64,000 nucleotides of DNA from Chloroflexaceae bacterium. Its GTDB lineage: Bacteria; Chloroflexota; Chloroflexia; Chloroflexales; Chloroflexaceae. The notes below the pieces were generated by a model. It worked only from the letters and a program-made list of their open reading frames with translations. It was not told the origin of the DNA and searched no databases. The number at the start of each line of letters is the position of its first letter. The stretch's first letter is position 1. Below, in pieces: positions 3,242 to 58,871 of this stretch. Made by a program: the position numbers and the translations under genes. Location: assembly GCA_012031225.1 (NCBI GenBank), contig JAAUTZ010000001.1, forward strand, positions 1 through 64,000, given 5' to 3'.

Positions 3242-4006
3242 ATGAGTTCCTACGCGGTCCAGCTGGCGGCACACCAGCAAAAGTATACCCAAGCGATTGC
3301 CCAAGCCCGCCATACTGGGGCGCAGGGCTTTACAGCATGGTTCAACCGCGAGGCCGCCCAAGATGCTACTCAAGCAATGGTGCGCGGCTTCTGGGATTTC
3401 GGGATGCACATTCTCACCCCGCCCGTGTGCGCCCACTTGGATCGCCCGGAGCGGCGCAGCGCACTCGAAATCGGCTACGGCGGGGGTCGTCTGCTGTATG
3501 CCGCAAGTCACTTCTTCGGCTGGGTACACGGGGTAGATATTCACGCTGAGGCGGGCTATGTTGCCCAACAGTTGCGGGCGGCGGGGCGGCACAACTTCCA
3601 GCTCTACCGCACGCCGGGCGATGTATTGCCTATTGCGGATGCAAGTGTGGATTTGGTCTACTCGTTTATTGTGTTGCAGCATCTGCCGCGCTACACCGTT
3701 CTGGTGCGCTACCTCCACGAGACCCGGCGGTGCTTGCGGGCAGGCGGGGTTGCGCAGCTCTACTTCGGGCGATTCGGGCGGCTGCACGCCCTGCATCAAG
3801 TGCGCTGGTGGTGGCGCGGCTACCGCGAAGTACCGCACGCCACCGCCAACCAGATCAGTTTGGTGGTGCGGGTTGGGGTAATGCGCCGGCTGTGTGCCAC
3901 GCTAGGGCTACAGGTGCTCGCCCACGGCTCATCCTACTATCGGGTGCCCGATGGCTACCCTACCCAGCGCGGCGGGCAGAGCTATGTCACCCTGTATAGG
4001 GGCTAA
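3242..4006 (+). CDS. Class I SAM-dependent methyltransferase
   Basis: The 254-residue soluble protein has a Rossmann methyltransferase core. Motif I is ALEIGYGGGRLLYAA (about residues 75-89), the acidic end of strand 2 is VHGVDI, motif II/III is DASVDLVYSFIVLQHL, and a post-motif LRAGGVAQLY follows. It resembles the Methyltransf_11/25 group. The substrate cannot be read from sequence. A helical N-terminal region of about 70 residues precedes the core. The ATG has GAGGAG at a good distance and a strong promoter. Downstream genes (acylphosphatase, flippase-like protein) follow closely on the same strand and may be co-transcribed. Confidence 0.85.
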   Translation: MSSYAVQLAAHQQKYTQAIAQARHTGAQGFTAWFNREAAQDATQAMVRGFWDFGMHILTPPVCAHLDRPERRSALEIGYGGGRLLYAASHFFGWVHGVDIHAEAGYVAQQLRAAGRHNFQLYRTPGDVLPIADASVDLVYSFIVLQHLPRYTVLVRYLHETRRCLRAGGVAQLYFGRFGRLHALHQVRWWWRGYREVPHATANQISLVVRVGVMRRLCATLGLQVLAHGSSYYRVPDGYPTQRGGQSYVTLYRG

Positions 4007-7144: not shown

Positions 7145-7269
7145 CAAGGTGTCAGGTATCAGGTGCGAGGTATCAGGTGTAGCCCATACGCACAGCGTAT
7201 CCCCGCCGCAGATTTTCTTATACTTGATACCTGACACCTCACACCTGACACCTCACGCCTGACACCTTG
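7145..7269. repeat. Inverted array of AGGTGTCAGGT-type units
   Basis: Left arm 7145-7180 repeats (A)GGTGTCAGG / AGGTATCAGG units. Right arm 7226-7269 repeats the complement (CCTGACACCT). The outer ends CAAGGTGTCAGG (7145-7156) and CCTGACACCTTG (7258-7269) are exact complements. The array fills the gap between convergent acsF and the hydrolase gene, so it may act as a two-way terminator. Similar arrays occur at 12168, 35996 and 45192. Confidence 0.85.
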
Positions 7270-12167: not shown

Positions 12168-12217
12168 GTCAGGTGTCAGGTGTCAGGTGTCAGGTTTCAG
12201 GTGGCGGGTGTCAGGTA
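12168..12217. repeat. Short direct array of GTCAGGT units
   Basis: Five to six head-to-tail copies of (T)GTCAGG(T) lie between the desulfurase start and the MFS stop on the minus strand. This site has only one arm, unlike the inverted arrays at 7145, 35996 and 45192, so it is a half copy of the same family. Confidence 0.8.
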
Positions 12218-20869: not shown

Positions 20870-22126
20870 TTACGATTTGCCCATCAAGCCGCGTGTGCCA
20901 TACTTAATCCGCTTGCGGCCTTCGGCTGTAGTTACCCCCGATTGCAGCATCAAGGTTGCTTCTTCTTCCACCGTGCGGGCCAGCTCAGTCTCACCGGCCT
21001 CAAACAAGCGTGTGCCAGCCATCCGCAGGCGGGCCGTCGCTTCTTCAATATCGCCCGCTTCCATCGCTTGCCATGCCCGCGACTGGAGCCGATACGCCAC
21101 GACTCGTTCAAGCCATTGCTTCACGTTGGGGTTGATCTGATCGTGCTTAGCGGCTTCTTGGGGCGAGCGCACAGGCACTTGGATCGTGGTTGCCGCAACT
21201 TGCTGTTGAGCATTGTCATCGGGCACGGTGTAACGAATGGCGATCTGGAGCACGGGATGATCGCCAACCGGCAGCGGTGGCACAACCATCTCGATCAGAA
21301 AGGCTTGTGTATCGCCACTTGGCCAGTCGCCGAGATTGCCGGTCCACGTTTGGGTCTGCTCCTCAATGATGCTGATCGGGGCAATGAAGGGGCGCACCCG
21401 ATCCAGTGCCCGCAGCATGCCATCGCCGCGCAGCTTGGCATACAGCTTGACACTCTGCGCGAAGGTGGCGTGCATACGCTGCAACTCTTCGGCAAACATC
21501 TGCGTGACTTCTTTGGCAGAGGTGATGTAATGTGCGCGGCTATTCTCGTGGGCGGCCATTGTTTCGAGCAGATCTTCATTCCACTCGCTGCCCATCCCAA
21601 GAACCGTCATGCCGATGCGCCGCTCTTGGGCCCGCCGCGCAATCTGGACACAGCGGCTTTCGTCGCCGTAGGTGCGCCCATCCGTGAGCAGCATAATCCG
21701 GCTAATGCCGCGGGTCATCCCAATCCGGCGGACTTCTTGCACGGCCATCGCTAGCCCGGTTGCCATTTCGGTGCCGCCTGCTGCTTCAATACCACTGACC
21801 TTGAGTTTGAGGTTGGCTTTGTCGGTGACCCGCTGGGCCGGAATCACAATGTCGGCGCGGTCATTAAAGGTCACAAGCGCGAAGTAGTCTTCGCTGGACA
21901 TATGATCAATGATGCGGTGGGTGGCATCTTTGACTTGATTGAGGCGTTCGCCGCGCATGGAGGAGCTACGGTCTACTACGAGGCATAGGCAGAGCGGGAG
22001 CTTAGAATCGGTACGGACAACCGCTTGGGGGTTCGCTTCGAGCAACGCATAGATCAATTGCGGCTCAGTGCTTGTCGGCAGCACCGGGCGGCTGATACTC
22101 CATTGCAGATGAATATCAGATTTCAT
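20870..22126 (-). CDS. VWA domain protein of the phospho-signalling operon
   Basis: The 418-residue soluble protein has a von Willebrand A domain at about 45-225. The metal-binding MIDAS site is intact: DRSSS (residues 52-56, DxSxS), Thr in GGTEMATG and Asp in MLLTDGRTYG. The C-terminal part has a beta region and a helical region (LERVVAYRLQSRAWQAMEAG), often called the VIT/VWA-C arrangement. The frame is open upstream to 22570, but that stretch is the phosphatase gene in another frame. The true ATG at 22126 overlaps the phosphatase TGA as ATGA, so the two are translated together. In related systems such VWA proteins are scaffold partners of a kinase-phosphatase pair. Confidence 0.92.
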   Translation of the reverse strand: MKSDIHLQWSISRPVLPTSTEPQLIYALLEANPQAVVRTDSKLPLCLCLVVDRSSSMRGERLNQVKDATHRIIDHMSSEDYFALVTFNDRADIVIPAQRVTDKANLKLKVSGIEAAGGTEMATGLAMAVQEVRRIGMTRGISRIMLLTDGRTYGDESRCVQIARRAQERRIGMTVLGMGSEWNEDLLETMAAHENSRAHYITSAKEVTQMFAEELQRMHATFAQSVKLYAKLRGDGMLRALDRVRPFIAPISIIEEQTQTWTGNLGDWPSGDTQAFLIEMVVPPLPVGDHPVLQIAIRYTVPDDNAQQQVAATTIQVPVRSPQEAAKHDQINPNVKQWLERVVAYRLQSRAWQAMEAGDIEEATARLRMAGTRLFEAGETELARTVEEEATLMLQSGVTTAEGRKRIKYGTRGLMGKS

Positions 22127-23562
22127 AGCGTTACTCTTTCTGCGATTGGGAACGTAACCACAAGAGCCGTAATATTGTCTTCGCCGCCGGCAAGGTTGGC
22201 ACGGGCAATCAGTTCGTGGCAGGTATCTTGAGGCCAGATGGTGTGCTGCATAACGTGGGTAAGCTGGGCATCCGTGAGCATGCCCCACAGCCCGTCGCTG
22301 CACAGCAGCAGGTGCGATGCCGTGCCAATCGGTTGGTACACAAAGTCCACCACGACATCGGGCTGCTGCCCAATAGCGCGATAGAGTTGATTGCGCTGCG
22401 GGTGCGTGTGGGCCTGTTCGGGGGTGATCTGCCCCAATTCGACAAACCGCGCAACCATCGAGTGATCGGTGGTAATCTGTTGCAACTGCCCATGCTCCAA
22501 TAGGTACGCCCGTGAGTCGCCGACGTGGGCGACATACAACGCCCGCCCCACCAATAGGGCGGCGGTACACGTTGTGCCCATATCGGTGCCGTGCTGTTGG
22601 GCGTGTTCCCAGATCACCTGATTGGCATACTGCACCGCTTCAATCATCAAGGTTTGCAGCACTGTGGTCGTGTTATCTTCCATCACGGGCAGCATAAATT
22701 GGCTGACCACCGACTCGGCGACGGCGTGAACGGCTAAGCGGCTGGCTAAGCCGCCCGCTTCGTGCCCGCCCATCCCATCTGCGACAACAAACAAGCCCAA
22801 AGGCAGATCGGCTCCTTCACGCGGCAAGCTGGAGAGCATGCCAAACCCGCTATCTTGATTCTCGCGCCGTTGCCGTCCGATGTCGCGCAGCACCGCAAAG
22901 GCTAGCCCCTGCTGGGTGGGTTGCACCTGCTCCAGCGGCGACAGCCGATCCGTATCCAATGGGGGGTCGCAGTCTGGGGCGGGGGGCACAACAGGCGGCA
23001 CCGGTGCGGCAGTGCGATAGTGGGTGAGCAGTTCATCATCGAACGTTTGCAGGCGATGTTCGTCAAGCGGGGCAGTATCGCTACCACGTTCGCGGGGCGT
23101 GGGCGGATCGGCGGGTGGGGCTTCCTCATTTACTTCAGGGGTGTGCTGGGTTGGCGAGGCAAGTCCGAGCAGTTCATCATCATCCGGCGCAGCATCAGGA
23201 GTATTATCCTGCTCAGCGGCCATATCAGCTAGGGCGAGTTGCAGGGCTTCATTGATGTCGGCTTCAGCTGCGGCAGCATCAGGTACACGTTGCAAAGCTC
23301 CATTGATGTCGGCTTCAGCTACGACAGCATCAGGTACAAGTTGCAAAGCTCCATTGATGTCGGCTTCAGCTGCGGCAGCATCAGGTGCAAGCAGCTGTGG
23401 GCCGAGCGGCGCGGTTGGCGCAGGGACAGGCTCCTGCGGCGATGGGGCAGCTGGCGCAGCAAGTGGCGTTGTTCCGCGTGTACCGGATGAATCAGGAGAT
23501 ACCGCCGGAACGATGGCTTGTTCTGTCTCTGAGCATTGCTGTTGGGACACACGCATCCCCAT
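22123..23562 (-). CDS. PP2C-type Ser/Thr protein phosphatase with repetitive N-terminal region
   Basis: The last 250 residues of this 479-residue protein are a PP2C phosphatase that removes phosphate from Ser/Thr with two metals. Motifs are DIGRQRRENQDS, VVADGMGGHEAGG, HVGDSRAYLL, TDHSMVARFVELG, CSDGLWGML and GGEDNITALVV, all with the metal-binding Asp residues. Residues 1-220 are acidic, Ala/Pro-rich and disordered-looking, and contain three tandem 17-residue repeats (PDAxxAEADINGALQ-like, near 54-104). It should oppose the kinase encoded 74 bp upstream. The start is uncertain because the ribosome site is weak and the N-terminus is low complexity. Confidence 0.93.
   Translation of the reverse strand: MGMRVSQQQCSETEQAIVPAVSPDSSGTRGTTPLAAPAAPSPQEPVPAPTAPLGPQLLAPDAAAAEADINGALQLVPDAVVAEADINGALQRVPDAAAAEADINEALQLALADMAAEQDNTPDAAPDDDELLGLASPTQHTPEVNEEAPPADPPTPRERGSDTAPLDEHRLQTFDDELLTHYRTAAPVPPVVPPAPDCDPPLDTDRLSPLEQVQPTQQGLAFAVLRDIGRQRRENQDSGFGMLSSLPREGADLPLGLFVVADGMGGHEAGGLASRLAVHAVAESVVSQFMLPVMEDNTTTVLQTLMIEAVQYANQVIWEHAQQHGTDMGTTCTAALLVGRALYVAHVGDSRAYLLEHGQLQQITTDHSMVARFVELGQITPEQAHTHPQRNQLYRAIGQQPDVVVDFVYQPIGTASHLLLCSDGLWGMLTDAQLTHVMQHTIWPQDTCHELIARANLAGGEDNITALVVTFPIAERVTL
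23251..23400. repeat. 51-bp tandem repeat, three copies, inside the phosphatase gene
   Basis: Copies begin at about 23251, 23302 and 23353, each opening ATTGATGTCGGCTTCAGCT on the plus strand. The 51-bp period keeps the reading frame and encodes a 17-residue acidic repeat. The copies differ at only a few bases, so the array is recent. Confidence 0.85.
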
Positions 23563-23636: not shown

Positions 23637-25895
23637 CTATGCCCGTAGTGCATACACCTTATGATCGAGTGAGCCGATATACACCACATCGTTGTGGATG
23701 GCGGGCGTAGAGACTACCGGTGCACCTGTCGGGAAGACCCAGACCAAGCGTCCATCACTAGCATCTACCGCATACACATTGCCATCAATTGCACCAATGT
23801 AGATGCGCCCATTGTGGTGGCGCGGCGACGATGTAATCTGGCTGCCCGTTTCATACTTCCATGCCAAGCGGCCATTCTTCCGTTCGACACCATAGAGGTT
23901 GCCATCGGCACTCCCGACATACACGCGACTGCCAACCACAATCGGCGACGAGTTGACCGCATGGCCAGTGCGGAACCGCCACATGGCAAAGCCGCCTTCG
24001 GCATCCAGCGCGTAGAGGTTGTTGTCCGATGAGCCAACATAGATAGCTCCTTCGTGATAGATCGGGCTAGAGATGACCGGCTGCTGCGTGCGTTGTTTCC
24101 AGCGCACGCCGCCGTTTTTGGTTTCGATGCAGTAGACGAATCCATCACCACCGCCGATGTAGAGCGCATCGCCATTGATCCATGCCGTCGAGCGTGCGGG
24201 CGACCAGAAGCGATACTTCCAGAGCAATGAACCGCGTGCGCCATCGAGGGCATACAAGTGCAGATCATCGGAGGAGACAAACACCCGTCGCTCATGCACT
24301 CGCGGTGAAGAGCGGATCGGCTGCTCGGTGCGGAAGGTCCACAGCGGCTTGCCGGTGCGGGTATCCAAGCCATACACCTTGCCATCTTCGGAACCCGTAA
24401 TGACAATATTTTCCCACACATCGGCGGTAGAGGGGATGCCGCCTTCGGTAGCATACTTCCAGCGAAATTCGCCGCGCAACGCATCGAGGGCGTAGAGGTT
24501 GGTATCGTAGCAGCCGATGTAGAGCATATTGTCTTGGATGCGGGGCGAAGAACGCACTTCATCTTCGCAAGTAAATGACCAGACCAACTCGGTGCTTGGC
24601 GCACTGCCCCGGCTGCGTACTGATGCAGCGGCAGTACTAGCGGAACCGGCACTGCTCGCATATGGTGAACTATTCGCACCACCCCCTACACCAAGACTCA
24701 CGAACGCCTGCTTTAGATCTTCCGCCGTTACCCAACGTTTCGCCATATCATATTCGAGGGCTTTCTCAACAATCCCCGCAACATCGGCGGAGATGGCCGC
24801 ATTGAGATTGCGGATTGGGCGTTCGTGAAAGGTAAACGGCGTTTGCAGACGCGGATCATCATTGGTGAGGAGGTGATGCAGCGTTGCGCCGAGCGCGTAA
24901 ATATCGCTCTGGGCTTCAGCAATGCCACGATACTGTTCGGGTGGGGCATAGCCCTCAGTGCCAATCATCGTCCCTTTCACGCCGCCCCGTTCGAGCAGAC
25001 GGGCGATCCCGAAGTCAATCAGCACAATCCGCTCTTCGGGCGTAACGACAATGTTGGAAGGCTTCATATCCCGAAAGACAATCGGGTTCGGTTGCAGATT
25101 GTGGAGATACGAAAGCACGTCGCAAATCTGCACCGCCCAATGCACCACCCGCGCTTCGGCAATCGGCTTGCCCGCTTCCTGCAAGACCTGATCCAAGTCT
25201 TGCCCATTGATCAACTCCATCACGAGATAGACGCGCCCGTTCTCCTCAAAGAAGTCGGATACCTTCGGAATCGTGGGGTGGCTCAATGTAGCCAGCAAGC
25301 CCGCTTCACGCTCAAAAAGGCGCAGGTTGAGGGTGCGGGTCTGTGTATCTACGGCACTTTGGTACATCTCTTTGATCGCACAGACACGGGCTTCATTGCC
25401 GAACTTCAAGCGCGTATCGCGCCCACGATAGACCACACTCATGCCCCCGATACCGAGAATATTCTCGATCTGATAGCGTTGCTGGAGCATCGTGCCGGCT
25501 GCAAGGGTCTGCGCGAAGGCGGCTTTCCGCTTGCCCCCCTCATCATCATTGGCGGCGGCTTTGCGGGCAGGGGGCGGAGTGCCGTGGGCGGGCGGGGCTG
25601 GCTTCGTAGCGGGGGCGACAGGGGTGACATTTTTCGTCGCATCAGTAGCAGGCAGGGGTGCGTCACCACTCACATTTTTCGTCGCATCTTCTGGGAGCTG
25701 CGTTAACCCTGCACCGACATGCTTGGTTGTGCCGCCTGCAATACGCGGCAGCGAACCGCCCGGAGCGGGTGCAGCCGGGGGAATATTCTTGGTTGCGTCA
25801 TCTGGTATCTGGGCAGTCTCATCCGGCACAGCCTGCGGCGGCTCGGCTGCACCTTGTCCAAGGATCTTCGTGCCACCTTTTTTAATCAACGACAT
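23637..25895 (-). CDS. Ser/Thr protein kinase with C-terminal PQQ-type beta-propeller
   Basis: The 752-residue protein has three parts. Residues 1-130 are a disordered tail with five Thr-Lys-x-[I/L/V] motifs (Thr 9, 35, 57, 72, 87), four of them in DATKN/GTTKH contexts. Residues about 138-400 are a Hanks-type kinase: GIGGMSVVYRG, Lys175 in CAIKEM, catalytic loop FRDMKPSN (Asp277, with Phe where His is usual), DFG at 294-296, and GTEGYAPPEQY. A Ser/Ala-rich linker precedes residues 440-752, a beta-propeller of seven or so PQQ/Trp-docking repeats (YIGSxDxxxYALDAxxGxxxW). There is no membrane helix, so it acts in the cytosol. It is the first gene of the operon. Confidence 0.94.
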   Translation of the reverse strand: MSLIKKGGTKILGQGAAEPPQAVPDETAQIPDDATKNIPPAAPAPGGSLPRIAGGTTKHVGAGLTQLPEDATKNVSGDAPLPATDATKNVTPVAPATKPAPPAHGTPPPARKAAANDDEGGKRKAAFAQTLAAGTMLQQRYQIENILGIGGMSVVYRGRDTRLKFGNEARVCAIKEMYQSAVDTQTRTLNLRLFEREAGLLATLSHPTIPKVSDFFEENGRVYLVMELINGQDLDQVLQEAGKPIAEARVVHWAVQICDVLSYLHNLQPNPIVFRDMKPSNIVVTPEERIVLIDFGIARLLERGGVKGTMIGTEGYAPPEQYRGIAEAQSDIYALGATLHHLLTNDDPRLQTPFTFHERPIRNLNAAISADVAGIVEKALEYDMAKRWVTAEDLKQAFVSLGVGGGANSSPYASSAGSASTAAASVRSRGSAPSTELVWSFTCEDEVRSSPRIQDNMLYIGCYDTNLYALDALRGEFRWKYATEGGIPSTADVWENIVITGSEDGKVYGLDTRTGKPLWTFRTEQPIRSSPRVHERRVFVSSDDLHLYALDGARGSLLWKYRFWSPARSTAWINGDALYIGGGDGFVYCIETKNGGVRWKQRTQQPVISSPIYHEGAIYVGSSDNNLYALDAEGGFAMWRFRTGHAVNSSPIVVGSRVYVGSADGNLYGVERKNGRLAWKYETGSQITSSPRHHNGRIYIGAIDGNVYAVDASDGRLVWVFPTGAPVVSTPAIHNDVVYIGSLDHKVYALRA

Positions 25896-35995: not shown

Positions 35996-36258
35996 GGTGG
36001 CAGGTTTCAGGTCACAGGTTTCAGGTCACAGGCTTCAGGTCACAGGTTTCAGGTCACAGGTTTCAGGTCACAGGGAAGGCACACCGCGCAAACCACGAAG
36101 ACCACCTATCCCCTCGCACCTACCTTCTAGAACCTGTCGTCAATTCGCATCTGTACTTGCCTATTCTTCGTGTTCTTCGTGTTCTTCGTGGTATGCCCGC
36201 CATGTTCTCCCTAGCACCTAACACCTGTCACCTGTCACCTGCCACCTGAGACCTGCCA
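35996..36258. repeat. Large inverted array with TTCAGGTCACAGG tandem units
   Basis: This region fills the gap between dus and the B12-binding-type gene, which otherwise shows no gene. The left arm (35996-36074) has five 14-bp units of the TTCAGGTCACAGGT kind. The right arm (36212-36258) has complementary CACCTGTCACCTG units. Between them, ACCACGAAGA (near 36093) faces TCTTCGTGGT (near 36183) after a short TTCGTGTTC tandem (36167-36190), so an inner second inverted pair is nested inside the outer one. Confidence 0.85.
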
Positions 36259-45191: not shown

Positions 45192-45308
45192 CAGGTGTCA
45201 GGTTACAGGTGTCAGGTTACAGGTGTCGGGTGTCAGGTTACAGGTGTCAGGTGTCAGGTGTCGGGTGTCGGGGCGGCGTGTTGCCACAACCCTAGCACCT
45301 GACACCTC
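45192..45308. repeat. Array of AGGTGTCAGG/GGTTACAGG units upstream of sbcC
   Basis: Eight or so head-to-tail units (CAGGTGTCAGGTTA, then GTGTCGGGTGTC variants) lie at 45192-45271. A short complementary arm CACCTGACACCT follows at 45296-45307. The array lies between the sbcC start and the stop of the secreted repeat gene. Confidence 0.82.
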
Positions 45309-47644: not shown

Positions 47645-49969
47645 ATGAGGAGTAACCCTACTACGATGCGAATGATGCTTGTAACCCTAACGATGCTACT
47701 CGCTATCGGGACGCTGGCCGCGTGTGGAACCACGCCACCGCCCGCTACGCCCGATGCTGCGCCGGTAGCTGGTGGCCCGGAGCGGACGATCTTCGTTGCC
47801 GCCGAGACTGCGCCTTGCACAGGCGTAGCCCCGATGGACTGCCTCCAGATCAAAGAGAGCCGCGACGCAGAGTGGCAGCTCTACTACGATCAGATTGAAG
47901 GCTTTGCCTACGAACCCGGCTTTGAATACGAGCTACAGGTGCGTGAGGAGACAATTGAGAACCCGCCTGCGGATGGCTCATCGCGCAAGCTGATCTTGAT
48001 TGCTGTTGTCAATCGCACCCCCGTCGGCAATGGAACCGCCGCCAACATCCCCGCCGATCTGCTCGGCAAGCAGTGGGTGCTAGAGAGCTTTGGTGCGGCA
48101 GATGCCCAACAGCCGTTGCTTGAGGGCACCGCGATCACGCTAGGCTTTGACGAAGAGGGCGGGCGCATCACTGGCTCGGCGGGCTGCAACAACTACTTTG
48201 CGGGGGTGAGCTTCGCGGGCGATGCGTTGAGCATCTCCGCCCCCGGCGCAACCCAGAAGCTCTGCCCGGATGTCGAGGGCATTATGGAGCAGGAGTACGC
48301 CTACCTGCAACTGCTCGAACAGGTTACAGGCTTCACGCTCGAAGAGCGCAGCCTGACCTTGAGCGCAGGCGATACGGTGCTGCTGTTCCGCTCAGGCCCC
48401 CCCAGCACAGGCGCACGCGAGGAGACCCCCGCCCCCCCCGCCAACCCACTCGCGGGCACAGAATGGACCCTCGTCGAGATTACTGTCGGTGAGGTGGTGA
48501 CCCCTGCGCTGCCTGATGCCCCCGCGAGCATCAGCTTCGATCCTGAGGGCGAAGCAGGCCGCTATGCAGGCACGGGCGGCTGCAACCGCTTGGCGGGCAG
48601 CTACAGCGTGAATGGCGATAGCATCAGCTTCGAGGCGGGCATTTCAACCCTGATCGCCTGCCCAGAGCCGATTATGGCGCAGGAGTTGCAAGTGACAGAG
48701 GCCCTGCTGGCAGCAACCCGCTTTGAAGTGGTGGATGATCGTTTGACCATCTTCTTTGCCGGTGCAGATGGCAATCTGAATACACTGCTGTTCAGCCGGG
48801 CCAGTGCGAATGATGCCAACCCAATCCCGAACACGATCCCGCCGACGAGTGGCGACCAACTGCCGCCGCTAGCTGGGGTGGCGTGGAACCTGATCGCCTT
48901 TGTGGAGGATGGCACAGAAACCCCCGCATTGCCCGATGCCCCGGCCAACATCACCTTCGATGGAGCAGGCCGCTACAGTGGCACCGGCGGCTGCAACCGT
49001 TTGGCGGGCGGATATAGCATGAGTGGTGATGCGATTACGTTTGATATGGGCTTGTCTACGATGATGGCGTGCCCAGAGCCGATTATGGATCAGGAGCTGC
49101 GCTTCAACCAATCGCTCAACGATGCCACGCGCTTCGTCGCTGATGCCAGCACCCTGACGATCTTCTTTACGACGGCAAGCGGCGGCGAGGGCGAGCTGCG
49201 CTTTGCGGCGGACAGTACCAGCACCACCCCCGCACCAAGCGGCGAGCAGAGCCTCACCGATGCAACGTGGCGGCTAGTCTCGCTGAATCAGGGCGGCGTA
49301 GCCGTGCCCGTCTTGGCAGATACCACCCCTGAGATCACCTTTGAAGCAGATGGCAGTGTGGCTGGTTCGGGCGGCTGTAACCGCTTCTTTGGCGGCTACA
49401 CACTCGATGGCAATGCGCTCACATTCGAGGCACTGGGCAGCACGGAGATGGCGTGCGAGCCAGAGATTCTGGATCAAGAGACAGCGATGTTGACGCTGTT
49501 GGGCGCAGTCACCAATTATGAGCGGGCGGAAGATGTACTCCTGCTCAACACAGACACTGGCGATACATTAGTCTTTGAACGGCAAGCGGAGGATACGATG
49601 GGCACGAATGAATTGACAGGCACGGCATGGAAACTGACCACGCTGGTCAGCGCAGGCACGGCGACCAGTGCCATCGTGAATGCGGAGATTGGGCGCGAGG
49701 CTGGCTTCCAGTTCCTGCCCGAAGGTCGGGTTTCGGGCAGCGGCGGCTGCAATGTAATCAACGCGGGCTTCACCCTCGCTGGCAACACGATCAGCTTTGG
49801 GCCTGCGATGAGTACCATGATGGCCTGCGCCGAAGATGTGATGCAGCAGGAATTTGCCTTTACGCAAGCCCTCGAACAGATCGAGACCTTCACGCTTGAG
49901 GGCGATACGTTGACGCTCAGCTCGGCCGATCAGCAGACCCAGCTGATCTTCGAGCGCGTCGCCGAATAG
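47645..49969 (+). CDS. Lipoprotein with DUF4377-like domain and five META (HslJ-like) domains
   Basis: The 774-residue product starts with a lipoprotein signal (LVTLTMLLAIGTLAACG). Residues about 45-130 resemble DUF4377 (TIFVAAETAPCTG, CLQIKESRDAEWQLYY, YELQV). Five META domains follow at about 145, 270, 410, 535 and 655. Each has the opening LxGTxWxL, GRxxGxGGCNxxxGxY and a later MACPEPIMxQE motif whose two cysteines could form a disulfide. META proteins such as HslJ are linked to heat and novobiocin resistance in Escherichia coli. Five copies in one chain is unusual. An in-frame ATG at 47666 is an equally good start. A terminator follows at 50049. Confidence 0.87.
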   Translation: MRSNPTTMRMMLVTLTMLLAIGTLAACGTTPPPATPDAAPVAGGPERTIFVAAETAPCTGVAPMDCLQIKESRDAEWQLYYDQIEGFAYEPGFEYELQVREETIENPPADGSSRKLILIAVVNRTPVGNGTAANIPADLLGKQWVLESFGAADAQQPLLEGTAITLGFDEEGGRITGSAGCNNYFAGVSFAGDALSISAPGATQKLCPDVEGIMEQEYAYLQLLEQVTGFTLEERSLTLSAGDTVLLFRSGPPSTGAREETPAPPANPLAGTEWTLVEITVGEVVTPALPDAPASISFDPEGEAGRYAGTGGCNRLAGSYSVNGDSISFEAGISTLIACPEPIMAQELQVTEALLAATRFEVVDDRLTIFFAGADGNLNTLLFSRASANDANPIPNTIPPTSGDQLPPLAGVAWNLIAFVEDGTETPALPDAPANITFDGAGRYSGTGGCNRLAGGYSMSGDAITFDMGLSTMMACPEPIMDQELRFNQSLNDATRFVADASTLTIFFTTASGGEGELRFAADSTSTTPAPSGEQSLTDATWRLVSLNQGGVAVPVLADTTPEITFEADGSVAGSGGCNRFFGGYTLDGNALTFEALGSTEMACEPEILDQETAMLTLLGAVTNYERAEDVLLLNTDTGDTLVFERQAEDTMGTNELTGTAWKLTTLVSAGTATSAIVNAEIGREAGFQFLPEGRVSGSGGCNVINAGFTLAGNTISFGPAMSTMMACAEDVMQQEFAFTQALEQIETFTLEGDTLTLSSADQQTQLIFERVAE

Positions 49970-50700: not shown

Positions 50701-51020
50701 CGCAAGGACGCTGGCACCATGCCGCATAGGATTCGTGGGGCGCAAAGGCGGTTCGCCCAATGCTACGTAATCGTAGTATAATTTAGTTAAGGAAAGATTA
50801 CAAAATACATACGAACTCCTGCAATCACTCGATTGCTAGCAAGATTGCACGCGCATAACCACATAGCACAGCTCTTCTTTCGCACTGGCGACACCAAGCA
50901 TGGCATTGGTGCGCCAAATACGTAGCGTTTACAGGACGAGGTTTGGCACGGAGCGCAACAACCGAAAGCAGACCACCATAACGGATATAAGCCCTGATAA
51001 TGATCGAAGGAGCAACAAGC
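50701..51020 (+). other. Gap upstream of the repetitive GAF protein
   Basis: No gene is visible. The AT-rich centre has TATAAT at 50777-50782, a possible -10 with no clear -35. AAGGAG (51007-51012) is the ribosome site for the ATG at 51021. Nothing else stands out. Confidence 0.5.
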
Positions 51021-54000
51021 ATGAGTGGTGCAGATGGGGAAGAGTTGAAATCTGGCTCAACAGTGAAGACCGCTTTTACTGAAGTACGGACTGAGTTGGA
51101 TGTGCAGGACAGTTCCTACGTGGCTGTGGTTAAGATTGTTGAAGCGGAACTAGTAGGGCCTACGGCTGAGGTTGACCTGCCAGCCGTAGCAGTAGCCGCC
51201 GAGCCAGTATCAGTGAGGATAGCCGCCGACCTCGACGCGGTACTCGCCGATCTGGATGCCGATGTGGATGTGCAATCGCCCGACTTCCTCACCGGCTTGC
51301 GGGCCCGCCTCGCCGAACTGAAGGGCAAGCTCGCGCTACCATCGCTGCCCACCGGCGATGCGGATGGGTCACTGGGCACGGCAGGTATCGCTGCGACGGG
51401 CGCAGGCGCGGGGCTTGCCGCAGGGCTGACCTTGCCCACGCTCTCCAGTGGCGAGCTTGACCTCACCGCCCTCCCGCCTGAAGTGGAAACCCAACTCGCT
51501 ACGCGCTACGAGCGGTCCCGCCTGAACGCCGATCTCGATGCGTTTGATGCCCGCTTTGCCGATACGCTCCACGGGCTAGACCCGGATCACGAGTTCCGCA
51601 CCGAGTACGCCGCACTGCGATCAGCACTGACCACGCCCGATGCCGATCTCGATGCCAACGCACTGATTGGCTGGCGGGCCCGCCTCGCCGAACTAAAGGG
51701 CAAGCTGGCGCTACCATCGCTCCCCACCGGCGATGCGGGTATCGCCGCCGCCGACCTCGACGCGGTACTCGCCGATCTGGATGCCGATGTGGAGACTCAA
51801 TCGCCCGACTTCCTCACCGGCTTGCGGGCCCGCCTCGCTGAACTGAAGGGCAAGCTGGCGCTACCGTCACTGCCCACTGGCGATGCGGATGGGTCGCTCG
51901 GCACGGCGGGTATCGCTGCCACAGGCGCGGGGCTAGCCGCCGGGCTAACCCTGCCCACGCTCTCCAGTGGCGAGCTTGACCTCACCGCCCTCCCGCCCGA
52001 AGTGGAAACCCAACTCGCTACGCGCTACGAGCGGTACCGCCTGAACGCTGATCTCGATGCGTTTGATGCCCGCTTTGCTGATACGCTCCACGAGCTAGAC
52101 CCGGATCACGAGTTCCGCACCGAGTATGCGGCATTGCGGGCGACACTGACCACGCCCGATACCGATCTCGATGCCGACGCACTGATTGGCTGGCGGGCCC
52201 GCCTCGCCGCTTTGCGCGAGCAGCTCGCAATCAAGCTCGCGCTACCATCACTGCCCACTGGCGATGCGGGTATCGCCGCCGCCGTCCCAAGCAGTGCCGT
52301 GCCCGAAGCCGCCGCCGACCTCGACGCGGTACTCACCGATCTGGATACCGACGTGGATGTGCAATCGCCCGACTTCCTCACCGGCTTGCGGGCCCGCCTC
52401 GCCGAACTGAAGGGCAAACTGCATCTACCGTCGCTGCCCACAGGCGATGCGGATGGGTCGCTCGGCACGGCGGGTATCGCCGCGACAGGCGCAGGCGTGG
52501 GGCTTGCCGCTGGGCTGACCTTGCCCACCCTGCCCAGTGGCGAGCTTGACCTCACTGCCCTCCCGCCTGAAGTCGAAACCCAACTCGCTACGCGCTACGA
52601 GCGGTCCCGCCTGAACGCCGATCTCGATGCGTTTGATGCCCGCTTTGCCGATGCGCTCCACGGGCTAGACCCGGATCACGAGTTCCGCACCGAGTACGCC
52701 GCACTGCGAGCGACACTGACCACGCCCGATGCCGATCTCGATGCCGACGCACTGATTGGCTGGCGGGCCCGCCTCGCGGCTTTGCGCGAGCAGCTCGCAA
52801 TCAAGCTGGCGCTACCATCGCTCCCCACTGGCGATGCAGGTATCGCCGCCGCCGCCCCAAGCATTGCTGTGCCCGAAGCCGCCGCCGACCTTGACGCGGT
52901 ACTCGCCGATCTGGATGCCGATGTGGAGACTCAATCGCCCGACTTCCTCACCGGCTTGCGGGCCCGCCTCGCCGAACTGAAGGGCAAGCTCGCGCTACCG
53001 TCACTGCCCACAGGCGATGCGGACGGGTCGCTCGGCACGGCGGGTATCGCCGCGACAGGCGCAGGCGTGGGGCTAGCCGCCGGACTGACCTTGCCCACGC
53101 TCCCCAGTGGCGAGCTTGACCTCACTGCCCTCCCGCCTGAAGTGGAAACCCAACTCGCTACATACTACGATAGTCTACGGCTCGAAATTGAGCTAGCCGA
53201 ATTGGAAGAACGCTTCAGCACACCGCTTGCCACCGATCCCGCCCTGTACGCCACCTTCACCACCCTCAAGACAAATGTCGGCGGTAATCCTGACCCGCTT
53301 GCCCTGCCTGATCTGCGGGCGCGGCTGGCAGCATTGCGTGAGCAGATGATCCGCTTTACGCTAGCCACCCCTGCCGCCGCCCCGCTAACGAATATGCAGA
53401 TCGAAGCTGAGCGGCTACGCCTCGAACTGCACAACATCGAGTCCACCTACGGCCTGCTGCTGCCCGAAAAAATGCCCCTGATGGCAGAGTATGCCGAGCT
53501 ACAGCAAGCGTTGGCTTACGACGTAGAGCGGCCCGAAGAGATCACCATACTTTGGCGGCGGTTGGTCACACTGCGCGACCAACTGGCAATCCTGAGCGTC
53601 AACACGAATCGCCCTAGCGATACCGCACCAAGCCCGGCGGCAGTTGCCCCGTTCACAGCCGCACGGCGCACGATTGACCCCGACACCCAAGCCGATCTGG
53701 TGATGCTGCGGGATGAGATGATCCTCGCCGCCACCGACCCGTTCCAACAGCGTGTGATGCAGCAGATGTTCTCGCTCTCCCGCGATAACCACGACTGGCT
53801 GTGGCACGTTACGCTCACGATGACAACTGCCGCCTATGGCTATGGCTTCAACCGCGCCGCGATCTTCCTCAACGAGAACACCGACGGCACGTATCTGCGC
53901 GGCATTCTAGGGATTGGCAACTTCGATTATGCTGACGCGCTCGGTGCGTGGGGCGATAAGCCGGCCCTCGACTTTGACACCTACATTACTTACCTGCGCG

Positions 54001-54353
54001 AAGATAAGCTAGAGCATACGCCGGTTGAGCTTGCTACCCGTGCCATGATTATCGCACTCGGCAAAACCGATGATGCCTTCACCTACGTGATGGAACACGG
54101 CGCACGCACGATTGTTCCGGTTGAAGATGTGGATGCCCGCCTGCCGCTCAACTTCATCGAACACTTTGGGCACACGCGCTACGTGCTGTTGCCGGTGCGT
54201 ACCCGTAGCCACCAACTAGGGGTGCTTGTCGCGGATAACTACCAGACCAACCACCCGATAGCGGATGATGCGCTCGATGGCTTGCAACGCCTGCTCAATC
54301 GGGCGGCGTTGATCTATCTGTATGGCACACTCGAGTCAACCGATATGGCATAA
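51021..54353 (+). CDS. Large repetitive protein with C-terminal GAF domain
   Basis: The 1110-residue product has three regions. Residues 1-69 are an acidic lead. Residues 70-714 are four near-identical units starting DLDAVLADLDADV at residues 70, 245, 433 and 623 (the fourth is partial). Each has a short helical piece (FLTGLRARLAELKGKLALPS), a Gly/Ala linker (GIAATGAGAGLAAGL) and a longer helical module (YERSRLNADLDAFDARFAD ... EYAALR ... WRARLAALREQLA). Residues 715-880 contain two older, diverged copies of that helical module. Residues about 895-1105 form a GAF-like sensor domain (AYGYGFNRAAIFLNEN, RTIVPVEDVDAR, VLLPVRTRSHQLGVLVADN). No membrane segment or output domain is seen. The start follows AAGGAG at 51007-51012. 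Confidence 0.88.
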   Translation: MSGADGEELKSGSTVKTAFTEVRTELDVQDSSYVAVVKIVEAELVGPTAEVDLPAVAVAAEPVSVRIAADLDAVLADLDADVDVQSPDFLTGLRARLAELKGKLALPSLPTGDADGSLGTAGIAATGAGAGLAAGLTLPTLSSGELDLTALPPEVETQLATRYERSRLNADLDAFDARFADTLHGLDPDHEFRTEYAALRSALTTPDADLDANALIGWRARLAELKGKLALPSLPTGDAGIAAADLDAVLADLDADVETQSPDFLTGLRARLAELKGKLALPSLPTGDADGSLGTAGIAATGAGLAAGLTLPTLSSGELDLTALPPEVETQLATRYERYRLNADLDAFDARFADTLHELDPDHEFRTEYAALRATLTTPDTDLDADALIGWRARLAALREQLAIKLALPSLPTGDAGIAAAVPSSAVPEAAADLDAVLTDLDTDVDVQSPDFLTGLRARLAELKGKLHLPSLPTGDADGSLGTAGIAATGAGVGLAAGLTLPTLPSGELDLTALPPEVETQLATRYERSRLNADLDAFDARFADALHGLDPDHEFRTEYAALRATLTTPDADLDADALIGWRARLAALREQLAIKLALPSLPTGDAGIAAAAPSIAVPEAAADLDAVLADLDADVETQSPDFLTGLRARLAELKGKLALPSLPTGDADGSLGTAGIAATGAGVGLAAGLTLPTLPSGELDLTALPPEVETQLATYYDSLRLEIELAELEERFSTPLATDPALYATFTTLKTNVGGNPDPLALPDLRARLAALREQMIRFTLATPAAAPLTNMQIEAERLRLELHNIESTYGLLLPEKMPLMAEYAELQQALAYDVERPEEITILWRRLVTLRDQLAILSVNTNRPSDTAPSPAAVAPFTAARRTIDPDTQADLVMLRDEMILAATDPFQQRVMQQMFSLSRDNHDWLWHVTLTMTTAAYGYGFNRAAIFLNENTDGTYLRGILGIGNFDYADALGAWGDKPALDFDTYITYLREDKLEHTPVELATRAMIIALGKTDDAFTYVMEHGARTIVPVEDVDARLPLNFIEHFGHTRYVLLPVRTRSHQLGVLVADNYQTNHPIADDALDGLQRLLNRAALIYLYGTLESTDMA
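51228..53160 (+). repeat. Long tandem coding repeats of 525-570 bp
   Basis: Equivalent GAC codons of the unit fall at 51228, 51753, 52317 and 52887, giving periods of 525, 564 and 570 bp. Unit 1 is shorter because its second half has LAELKGKLALP in place of LAALREQLAIKLALP and lacks the linker ending PEA. Copies agree at most bases over long stretches, so expansion is recent. The fourth copy ends where the sequence turns from ATRYERSR to ATYYDSLR, near 53160. Confidence 0.9.
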
Positions 54354-55244: not shown

Positions 55245-57038
55245 ATGGGGATGCAACAGACGCTCAACCAGACGAGTAGCCGCCGCGAATTTACGGTTGC
55301 CGATGAGTACCAGTATGATCGCCGCTCGCCAGTGCGCTGGATCATTTCGCACATCATGCGCTATCCGTTGCTATCCGTCATCGCAATTGCCAGCAACATC
55401 CTTTCCAATGCCTCAATTGCATATGGCGCAGTCCTGATTGGGCAGGGCTTCGATCTGATCAATCAGCCCGGCATCACCAGTGCCGATCTGCGTAGCCTTG
55501 CGCTACAGGTGTTCATCTTCTTTGCGGGCTTGGGTGTGTTTGGGGTGAGTGGCGCATTCGCCTATGAATTTATCGCCCAGTGGGTGGAGCGCAATACCCG
55601 CGAGGAGATGTTTATTAGCTTGCTTGGCAAGAGCCAGACCTTTCACAATCGGCAGCGGGTGGGCGATATTATGGCTCGGGCCACCAACGATGTGCAGCAG
55701 CTCAACATCATGATCAATCCCGGCATCGGGCTGATCTCGGATGCGCTGTTCAGCATCATCGTGCCGATCATTGCGATTGGGTTGCTCAATGTCCAACTGC
55801 TGCTCGTGCCGATCCTGTTCTTGATCGTCTTCTCCTTTGCGCTGCGTTCGTATGCGATCCAGCTCGGCCCAGTCTCTGGGCAGCTGCGCGAGCAGTTTGG
55901 CGTGATGAATGCGGGCCTTGCCGAAGCAATTTCTGGCATCGAGGTGGTCAAAGCCTACGGGCAGGAGCAGTCTGAACAACGCCGCTTCCTCGATAATGCC
56001 CGCCGCTACCGAGATCTGTTTGTGGTGCAGGGGCGGGTGCAAGCGCAGTATCTGCCGGTGCTGTTGTTTGGGGTTGCGCTCGGCTTGGGCTTTGGGCACG
56101 CGCTGTTGCTATTTCGCGCTGGCGTGCTGACACAGGGCGACGTGGTGGCGTTTATGGGGCTGATGTTCCTGCTGCTGTTCCCTACCTTCATTTCGCTCTT
56201 TGCATTTGTGCTGGTGCAGCTTGGGGCGGCAAGTGCCGAGCGGATATTGAGCATCATCAATACCGAAACCGAGCTAGACGAAAATGCGGCGGGGGTGAGC
56301 CAGCCAATGCACGGTGAGCTGGTCTTCGAGAACGTGACCTTCAGCTATGGCGATGGCAGTGGTGCGCCTGTGCTCCGGAATATCTCCTTCCGCGCCAATG
56401 CGGGCGAGACGGTGGCGATTGTGGGGCAGACCGGCTCTGGCAAGTCTACCCTCACGCGCTTGGTCAACCGCACCTACGATACCACCGAAGGGCGCGTGCT
56501 GATAGATGGAATGGATGTGCGCGACTGGAGCCTGCAAGCCCTGCGTTCGCAAATCTCGACGATTGAGCAGGACATCTTCCTGTTCTCGCGCACGATTGGC
56601 GAAAACATCGCCTTCGGTGTGCCGGATACAACGCAGGCCCAGATTGAGCAAGCTGCCCGCGACGCGCAAGCCGATACGTTTATCCGCAGCTTTCCCGATG
56701 GCTACGATACAATGGTGGGTGAACGCGGCGTGACCCTCTCCGGTGGGCAACGCCAACGCCTTGCGATTGCACGGGCATTCCTGACTGATCCGCGCATCCT
56801 GATCCTTGATGACTCGACCAGCGCAATTGATAGTGCCACTGAGGATGAGATTCAGCAGGCGATGCGGCGCATTCTGCACGGGCGCACCACGCTGCTGATT
56901 ACGCACCGCCTCTCGCAGATTCGCTGGGCTGATCGGATTCTGGTGATCCAGCGCGGCGAATTGGTGGCACAGGGCACGCACGACGAACTGATGACAAGCA
57001 GTGCCGATTATCGGCGCATCTTTGCCCGCTACGAATAG
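55245..57038 (+). CDS. ABC exporter half-transporter (subunit 1, degenerate catalytic site)
   Basis: The 597-residue protein has an N-terminal type IV exporter membrane domain with six helices (about residues 35-320) and a C-terminal ATPase. Walker A is GQTGSGKSTL, the Q-loop region ISTIEQDIFLFSRTIGENI, signature LSGGQRQR and Walker B ILILDDSTSAID. The residue after Walker B is Asp rather than the catalytic Glu, as in one half of heterodimeric exporters. The H-loop His (ITHRLS) is kept. It pairs with the next gene, 21 bp downstream. Two ATGs (55245, 55251) are possible starts. Substrate unknown; drugs, lipids or peptides are typical. Confidence 0.92.
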   Translation: MGMQQTLNQTSSRREFTVADEYQYDRRSPVRWIISHIMRYPLLSVIAIASNILSNASIAYGAVLIGQGFDLINQPGITSADLRSLALQVFIFFAGLGVFGVSGAFAYEFIAQWVERNTREEMFISLLGKSQTFHNRQRVGDIMARATNDVQQLNIMINPGIGLISDALFSIIVPIIAIGLLNVQLLLVPILFLIVFSFALRSYAIQLGPVSGQLREQFGVMNAGLAEAISGIEVVKAYGQEQSEQRRFLDNARRYRDLFVVQGRVQAQYLPVLLFGVALGLGFGHALLLFRAGVLTQGDVVAFMGLMFLLLFPTFISLFAFVLVQLGAASAERILSIINTETELDENAAGVSQPMHGELVFENVTFSYGDGSGAPVLRNISFRANAGETVAIVGQTGSGKSTLTRLVNRTYDTTEGRVLIDGMDVRDWSLQALRSQISTIEQDIFLFSRTIGENIAFGVPDTTQAQIEQAARDAQADTFIRSFPDGYDTMVGERGVTLSGGQRQRLAIARAFLTDPRILILDDSTSAIDSATEDEIQQAMRRILHGRTTLLITHRLSQIRWADRILVIQRGELVAQGTHDELMTSSADYRRIFARYE

Positions 57039-57059
57039 CAACACAGGAGGTACTCCCAG

Positions 57060-58871
57060 ATGGGTTTTGTCATTGATGGCCTTGATGCAGAGGAGTATGA
57101 CCGTTCCTATAGCGATAGGGCGTTGATCCGGCGCATCACCGACTACTTCAAGCCGCATCGCGGGCGCATGCTGCTGATCTTGCTGATGGTGGTGTTGCAG
57201 TCGGCGGTGCAGACGTTGCTGCCGTTGGCAATCGCAAACGGGATCAACACGTTGGCCGCCATCCCCACGCTCACCCAGATTGGAATGTTGACTGGGGCGG
57301 TGGTGCTGATCGGCGTACTCGGTTGGATCTTCAACTATGTGCGCCAGTATCAATCGGCGGTTGCGGTGGGCGATGTTGTGCTAGCTCTACGCGAAGATGC
57401 CTTCGATTCTGTGATGCAGCGTGATATGTCGTTCTACGATAAGTACCAATCGGGCAAGGTCGTGAGCCGGGTTACGTCAGATACGCAGGACTTCTCGAAT
57501 GTGGTCACGCTGACGATCAACCTTGCGAGCGAGCTACTCGTGGTCGTTGCGGTGCTCGTGGTACTGTTTGCGATCAACCCCACCCTCGCCCTAATTACGA
57601 TGCTGGTGCTGCCCGGCTTTGCGCTTGCCGCGCTGGTCTTTCGCAAGGCGGCGCGTTGGGCAACCCGCCGCGCCCAACGGATGACCGCCCAACTCAATGC
57701 GACGGTGCGCGAGGCAATCAGTGGGATTGGCGTTGCCAAGAGCTTCCGCCAAGAGTCAGCCATCTATGTTGATTTCATGGACGTTAACAAGCTGACGTTC
57801 CGCATCAAGATGCAACAGGGCTTGGTATTCAGCACGATCTTTCCCGCGCTCGATATTGTCGCTGCGATTGGGACGGGCGTGGTGGTCTACTTTGGGGGCT
57901 TGCAGGTGCTCAGTGGGGCGGCAACGGCGGGAACGTGGTATCTCTTTCTGCGGAGCTTGCAGATATTCTACATTCCGGTCACGAGTATCGCTTCCTTCTG
58001 GAGTCAGTTTCAGCAGGGCTTGGCGGCAAGTGAGCGCGTGTTTGCCTTAATTGACGCGGAGTCGAATGTGATCCAGACCGCCAACGAGCCAGTGGATCAC
58101 CTGCACGGCGCGATCAACTTTCGGCGCGTAGATTTTGCCTATACGCCGGAGGTGCCGGTGCTACAGGGCTTCACGCTCGATGTTCCGGCGGGGCAGAAGC
58201 TCGCGGTGGTGGGGCATACAGGCGCGGGCAAATCGAGCCTGATCAAGCTGATTACGCGCTTCTATGAGTTTCAGGGCGGCACGTTGCTGGTAGATGGGCG
58301 GGATATTCGCCGCCTCGATCTGAGCCAATACCGCCCCCAAATTGGCCTCGTGCCGCAATCGCCGTTTCTCTTTTCGGGCACGGTGGCGGATAACATCCGC
58401 TATGGGCGGCAGACAGCCAGCGATGCGGAGGTGGACGCGGCGGCGCGGGCGATTGGAGGGGCGTGGCTGGATGACCTGCCGGAAGGCTTGCAGACCGACG
58501 TGGGCGAACGCGGGGCCCGCCTCTCGCTAGGGCAACGCCAGCTGGTGGCCTTGGCGCGGGTGCTGCTGCAAAATCCGTGCGTCTTCATTCTAGATGAAGC
58601 GACGGCAAGTATTGACCCCTTCACTGAGGCGCAGATACAGGATGGGCTAGACGTGGTGATGCAAGGACGCACCAGCATCGTGATTGCCCACCGCCTCTCG
58701 ACGGTACGTAATGCGGATCGGATCATTGTGATGCAAGCGGGAACAATCATCGAAGAAGGCACGCACGATACGCTGCTGCTACAGGGTGGGCACTATGCCG
58801 AGCTGTATACGACGTACTTCCGCCACCAGTCTATCGAGTACATCGAGCAGGTCGGAGCGTGGAGCGGCTAA
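57060..58871 (+). CDS. ABC exporter half-transporter (subunit 2, canonical Walker B)
   Basis: The 603-residue partner has six membrane helices (about residues 35-330) and an ATPase with Walker A GHTGAGKSSL, Q-loop IGLVPQSPFLFSGTVADNI, signature LSLGQRQL and Walker B FILDEATASID with catalytic Glu. The altered signature (LSLGQ) would face the site made by the Walker A and Walker B of subunit 1, and so gives one weak and one full ATP site, the usual design of heterodimeric exporters such as TM287/288. AGGAGG lies before the ATG. It is translated right after subunit 1 and surely forms one transporter with it. Confidence 0.93.
   Translation: MGFVIDGLDAEEYDRSYSDRALIRRITDYFKPHRGRMLLILLMVVLQSAVQTLLPLAIANGINTLAAIPTLTQIGMLTGAVVLIGVLGWIFNYVRQYQSAVAVGDVVLALREDAFDSVMQRDMSFYDKYQSGKVVSRVTSDTQDFSNVVTLTINLASELLVVVAVLVVLFAINPTLALITMLVLPGFALAALVFRKAARWATRRAQRMTAQLNATVREAISGIGVAKSFRQESAIYVDFMDVNKLTFRIKMQQGLVFSTIFPALDIVAAIGTGVVVYFGGLQVLSGAATAGTWYLFLRSLQIFYIPVTSIASFWSQFQQGLAASERVFALIDAESNVIQTANEPVDHLHGAINFRRVDFAYTPEVPVLQGFTLDVPAGQKLAVVGHTGAGKSSLIKLITRFYEFQGGTLLVDGRDIRRLDLSQYRPQIGLVPQSPFLFSGTVADNIRYGRQTASDAEVDAAARAIGGAWLDDLPEGLQTDVGERGARLSLGQRQLVALARVLLQNPCVFILDEATASIDPFTEAQIQDGLDVVMQGRTSIVIAHRLSTVRNADRIIVMQAGTIIEEGTHDTLLLQGGHYAELYTTYFRHQSIEYIEQVGAWSG

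Follow-up and report, generated by a model that had tools for sequence, protein, structure and literature searches.

In the 64-kb stretch of DNA that we analysed (the window), one gene on the forward strand encodes a tandem array of long repeats followed by a region with a predicted GAF fold (Table 1). The gene consists of one open frame with two candidate start codons, of which ATG 51021, preceded by the sequence AAGGAG (51007–51012, eight bases 5′ of this ATG, read by eye), is the likelier one. The encoded protein is acidic (pI 4.37, computed charge about −85 at pH 7) and lacks cysteine. Read by eye, its sequence shows neither an apparent signal peptide nor an apparent membrane segment, and a comparison with Pfam yields no anchor domain. 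The gene adjoins a META gene (47645–49969) whose five META domains, accompanied by a single DUF4377 domain, represent a domain amplification of its own that is older and has diverged. Two genes in the same genome match the photosynthetic reaction-centre family, which makes it probable that the host, a member of the Chloroflexales, is phototrophic.

Table 1. Coordinates of the array gene and its parts in the window (residues are numbered from ATG 51000).
Feature	Position	Strand	Residues	Remarks
Array gene, longer reading	51000..54353	+	1–1117	1117 codons from ATG 51000; one open frame
Array gene, likelier start	51021..54353	+		1110 aa from ATG 51021
N-terminal region	51000..51224	+	1–75	mostly low-confidence prediction, pLDDT < 50
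Unit 1	51225..51749	+	76–250	175 aa, 525 bp; A hairpin, linker, B module with A-type C-terminal end
Unit 2	51750..52313	+	251–438	188 aa, 564 bp; from repeat search, alignment and self-BLAST
Unit 3	52314..52883	+	439–628	190 aa, 570 bp; from repeat search, alignment and self-BLAST
Unit 4, first half only	52884..53172	+	629 to ~724	A hairpin, linker, start of B
Module B4	53130..53393	+	711–798	diverged three-helix module
Module C	53394..53639	+	799–880	most diverged three-helix module
Predicted GAF domain	53748..54320	+	917–1107	pLDDT mostly 84–95; profile and fold matches

An initial annotation of this DNA had described four almost identical in-frame units in a GAF protein. We found three full units and only the first half of a fourth, which ends at about 53161–53172 and passes into a diverged module, B4. 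The repeat search placed the starts at 51222, 51747, 52311 and 52881, that is, at spacings of 525, 564 and 570, all of them multiples of three, and insertions and deletions between the units likewise keep the frame. Unit pairs are 89.3–93.3% identical with gaps (self-BLAST of the gene) and 91.1–93.6% identical over aligned codons. Near-identical coding repeats within one gene are thus confirmed; ‘almost identical’ stands here for a DNA identity of 89–94%, and the longest exact repeat in the array is 80 nt. Other direct repeats of at least 80 nt are just 91–138 nt long in a self-BLAST of the whole window. At a smaller scale, a 7-base unit, CAGGTNN or its complement, forms arrays at 12170–12204, 36001–36070, 36221–36255 and 45192–45261, and also at 7225–7267; they look intergenic. 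A PP2C-type phosphatase gene (22123–23562, − strand) has three in-frame repeats of 51 bp, about 90% similar to each other, at 23237–23391, where it encodes an Ala-rich N-terminal region; it adjoins a gene for a Ser/Thr kinase with a fused PQQ-type beta-propeller (23637–25895, − strand).

Conservation of codons had been proposed as well, and it holds: of the residues that are identical between the B modules of units 2 and 3 (B2 and B3), 86% are encoded by the same codon, whereas 500 within-gene shuffles of synonymous codons gave a mean of 39% and a maximum of 51%. This is far above the expectation from codon bias and therefore speaks for shared descent or conversion and not for convergence. Pairs of window units show dS values of 0.17–0.25 and dN values of 0.02–0.05. 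The resulting dN/dS of about 0.1–0.27 (near 0.2) indicates purifying selection on the array units, which would mean that the modules matter as protein. In the initial annotation purifying selection on each unit, combined with an identical copy number in all strains, had been listed as an observation that would count against its reading; the selection is found between the units, but it is no argument against a recent origin.

Each unit is composed of A, a short acidic two-helix hairpin, a Gly/Ala/Pro/Thr linker, and a three-helix module, B, which is about 80 residues long. Two older, diverged modules of the B type, B4 and C, lie downstream of half-unit 4. The first 12–14 residues of B4 overlap with the end of the half-unit; compared with B1–B3, B4 has a DNA identity of 52–54% and a dS of 1.4–1.9, and C shares 23% protein identity with B1. 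A profile built from the B, B4 and C modules recovers all of them and, in the window, also matches the A hairpins weakly (E 9.6e-5 to 6.5e-4), which indicates a resemblance between A and the final portion of B. In an AlphaFold model of the whole protein (mean pLDDT 61) helix pairs and triplets appear at the expected places with pLDDT values of about 42–89, while the linkers stay below 50, as for disorder; the Gly/Ala/Pro linkers between the modules are thus probably disordered. A separate model of the B2-A3-B3 block gave about 59–78 for the B helices, which is moderate confidence only. Searching the PDB with this repeat model using Foldseek, we obtained no match below E 1.4, and neither Pfam nor NCBIfam contains a family that the repeat matches over its curated cut-off. 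Sequence-profile matches to PDB entries (coiled-coil, designed-helix and other proteins) were weak, with a best E of 0.0011; we judged them to reflect composition and rejected a known PDB family as the identity of the repeat.

The Pfam GAF model matches the window protein with E = 0.019 and 15.9 bits and the protein of a sister species with 17.4 bits, both below the curated cut-off of 22.4. A profile built from 15 relatives hits 3oov, a solved GAF structure, at E 1.5e-5, and Foldseek returned 10 PDB matches at E ≤ 0.001 with GAF domains heading the list. These matches and the predicted model indicate that the C-terminal region adopts a divergent GAF fold, in line with the naming of the gene product as a GAF protein in the initial annotation. 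The predicted fold is like that of the sensor GAF structures 3oov, 3eea and 5w10, although identity to them is only about 10–14%. A cysteine is needed for covalent binding of a bilin and for cysteine-dependent methionine sulfoxide reductase activity; because the array protein lacks cysteine, neither function is likely for this GAF domain.

Outside the genus, relatives of the GAF domain are present in 12 of 61 genomes (14 of 61 if the two of the genus are counted). The closest of them are 26–42% identical and reside inside multi-GAF histidine kinases of Chloroflexales; for the 13 relatives outside the genus, reading frames are 1338–2199 aa long among the matches listed. Five of these 13 were scanned with Pfam, and all five contain several GAF domains and a HATPase domain, four of them also a receiver. 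The window protein is related to these kinases through its GAF domain but differs from them in its repeats and in the absence of a receiver, a kinase and any other output domain that is recognised; Pfam gives no HATPase or receiver match in it. In its own genome no large kinase with the GAF subtype of the array gene was found, only two weak matches besides the gene itself. We also considered excision of the GAF domain from a large kinase of the own genome. Among the proteins with the next-best GAF matches in the own and the sister genome, the large ones, of 1800 and 1856 aa, are just 20–29% identical to the two kinases that were compared, therefore no donor was identified.

The repeat is restricted to one genus within the class-level genomes searched. 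A search of 41 genomes of the family detected the N-terminal and repeat part in 2, and the module profile gave matches in 2 of the 82 genomes searched for the order and in 2 of 158 for the class, in each case in the own genome and in that of the sister species, which is the only other genome of the genus in these overlapping sets. Unit 3 has no relatives in viral contigs, and a viral origin of the repeat was rejected on this ground. An ABC exporter pair that lies close to the array gene (55245–58871) was found in eight of ten other genera that were queried; a ninth has ABC2 alone at a contig end and the tenth gave no match. At none of these nine loci is the repeat gene found beside the ABC genes, with contig ends limiting the view in three. 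The exporter pair is unusually conserved between the two species (dS 0.16–0.20 versus a neighbourhood median of 0.42), which may be due to strong codon selection or to recent exchange. A search of one literature library gave no paper on the array gene or on a Chloroflex GAF protein with tandem or internal repeats. The repeat thus belongs to no named family, while the kind of event is already known and ordinary.

The sister species carries an orthologue of 680 aa that is flanked alike, with a META gene upstream and an Ig-like gene and the ABC pair downstream. It consists of the N-terminus, one A, one B, B4, C and the GAF domain. Hence A blocks number four in the window and one in the sister, B1-type blocks three and one, and three-helix modules five and three; the variation in copy number that had been suggested for strains is therefore observed between species, in a comparison of one genome from each of two species. 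The sister gene has an internal duplication of its own, of 193 bp and 97.9% identity, which covers the end of a helix and the linker (3252–3444 and 3612–3804 of the sister locus), and its longest exact repeat is 106 nt. The edges of this duplication are unlike those of the window units. Own duplications with different edges in both species argue for recent repeat turnover in both lineages.

We compared synonymous distances within the array with those between the species. A blocks show dS values of 0.19–0.28 within the window and 0.41–0.57 between species, and for B1–B3 the values are 0.12–0.24 and 0.98–1.2, respectively. In both types of block the window units are nearer to each other than to the corresponding unit of the sister, as expected from the recent duplication or homogenisation that the initial annotation had proposed. 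Since distances within the array are smaller than those of the same blocks between species, the amplification or homogenisation probably postdates the species split. Between-species values were also obtained for the C-terminal 319 codons (dS 0.56) and for the neighbourhood; the neighbourhood median of 0.42 derives from the 32 of 43 ORF pairs in which dS exceeded 2 × dN (11 were dropped), includes the array gene and contains some pairs that are shadow frames. Lower between-species values were obtained for the two adjacent ABC genes (0.16 and 0.195) and for the N-terminal 74 codons of the array gene itself (0.19); if these are the better clock, the amplification may date from roughly the time of the split. 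A date after the split is the better reading, by a margin that is not wide on every clock. With two genomes, a gain of copies here cannot be separated from a loss of copies in the sister combined with homogenisation here.

The shorter length of unit 1, from which more than one internal class of units had been deduced, can be traced to the end of its B module, which is an A-type segment. Over its last 70 nt, B1 is 94% identical to A1 and 87–90% identical to the other A copies; in an ungapped comparison the equivalent ends of B2 and B3 reach just 66–67% with A1. At the B end unit 1 differs from units 2 and 3 at 10 and 11 positions in 57 nt, and units 2 and 3 differ from each other at 1 in 60. 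An exchange that joined the end of an A block to a B module therefore accounts for the shorter unit 1. In the region shared by all four copies (282 columns), 10 informative sites are split 6:3:1 among the three possible groupings, so that one tree is insufficient without recurrent change or recombination. The ongoing gene conversion suggested initially is in keeping with these conflicting patterns, but the clustering expected for conversion tracts did not appear: the order of the sites (10, of which four are adjacent) is no different from chance (permutation p = 0.52).

On balance we favour, with somewhat more confidence than doubt, the explanation that the protein is a soluble chain of modules tipped by a GAF domain, in which one block was amplified by in-frame unequal recombination and which serves as a scaffold or adaptor. 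We hold the evolutionary part of it with good confidence. In this reading the product is a soluble protein confined to the genus, a series of small acidic three-helix modules with flexible linkers and two-helix hairpins between them, and with a GAF tip of the subtype that is found inside large multi-GAF histidine kinases. In-frame unequal homologous recombination would have multiplied the [A-linker-B] block, initially present in about one copy, to three and a half copies in this lineage. Short segments common to the ends of A and B may have permitted half-unit exchange and so produced the shorter unit 1, and after the amplification purifying selection acting on the protein would have preserved the units.

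The strongest competitor, which we regard as rather unlikely, is an old multi-copy array that predates the species split, was shortened in the sister and was homogenised here by gene conversion (concerted evolution). Such a history would account for the conflicting 2:2 site patterns among the four copies, for the A-type segment at the end of B1 and for the 98% identity between the A-linker and B-linker segments of the sister. It sits less well with the between-species distances, which leave no window copy as a clear one-to-one partner of the sister's copy (the dS ranges given above apply to all copies), and with unit divergences that are roughly equal, as after a burst. Less probable again is a neutral, transient expansion of a spacer in front of the GAF domain that has no selected function: the restriction to one genus and the disorder-like confidence of the linkers agree with it, but helices and not linkers dominate the unit, and the dN/dS between units implies that replacement changes were removed after duplication. 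An array that is chimeric or miscounted is highly improbable, because, although the genome is a draft of 205 contigs and tandem repeats are known to mislead assemblers (PMC6868369), the units differ at 6–11% of sites with 5–10 singletons per copy in the four-copy region, exact repeats are short and the frame stays open throughout under selection. The units differ enough for their stated order to be credible; identical extra units could still be collapsed.

The functional part of our favoured explanation, recombinational amplification of a GAF-tipped module chain, is tentative. As no kinase, cyclase, DNA-binding, membrane or export part is recognised in the protein, a role as cytoplasmic scaffold or adaptor appears the most likely one. 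The GAF domain might sense a ligand or dimerise, the acidic helical modules might bind partner proteins, and the number of modules might set valency or reach.

In-frame changes of copy number are known from other coding repeats. Legionella pneumophila reportedly shows variation of intragenic tandem repeats of this kind, in other genes and with other repeats than those of the window array. A parallel is also given by the Periscope Proteins, bacterial surface proteins of variable length such as SasG, Rib and Sgo_0707; an article on them (PMC8201768) describes tandem, highly similar folded domains whose copy number varies among relatives, with recombination between similar units as the proposed cause. 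The same article states that near-identical large tandem domains are disfavoured in the majority of multidomain proteins, with bacterial surfaces providing the best-documented cases, and that Periscope Proteins form rods on the cell surface that have a wall anchor and a tip for binding host ligands (PMC8201768). The window protein is set apart from them as it has no apparent export or anchor feature (judged by eye), and it further differs in its probably disordered linkers and its GAF tip.

A probably cytoplasmic protein of the sensor type thus constitutes, with its single-copy counterpart from the sister species, a clean pair of a short and a long form for studying how such an array originates, and the array supplies an unnamed helical repeat to characterise. 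A bolder reading, which we consider improbable, is that the copy number of a cytoplasmic helical array with a ligand-sensing GAF domain acts as a heritable dial of valency or reach that is tuned by recombination. If true, the protein would be the soluble counterpart of the variable-length surface proteins, built with a module that is found only in this genus.
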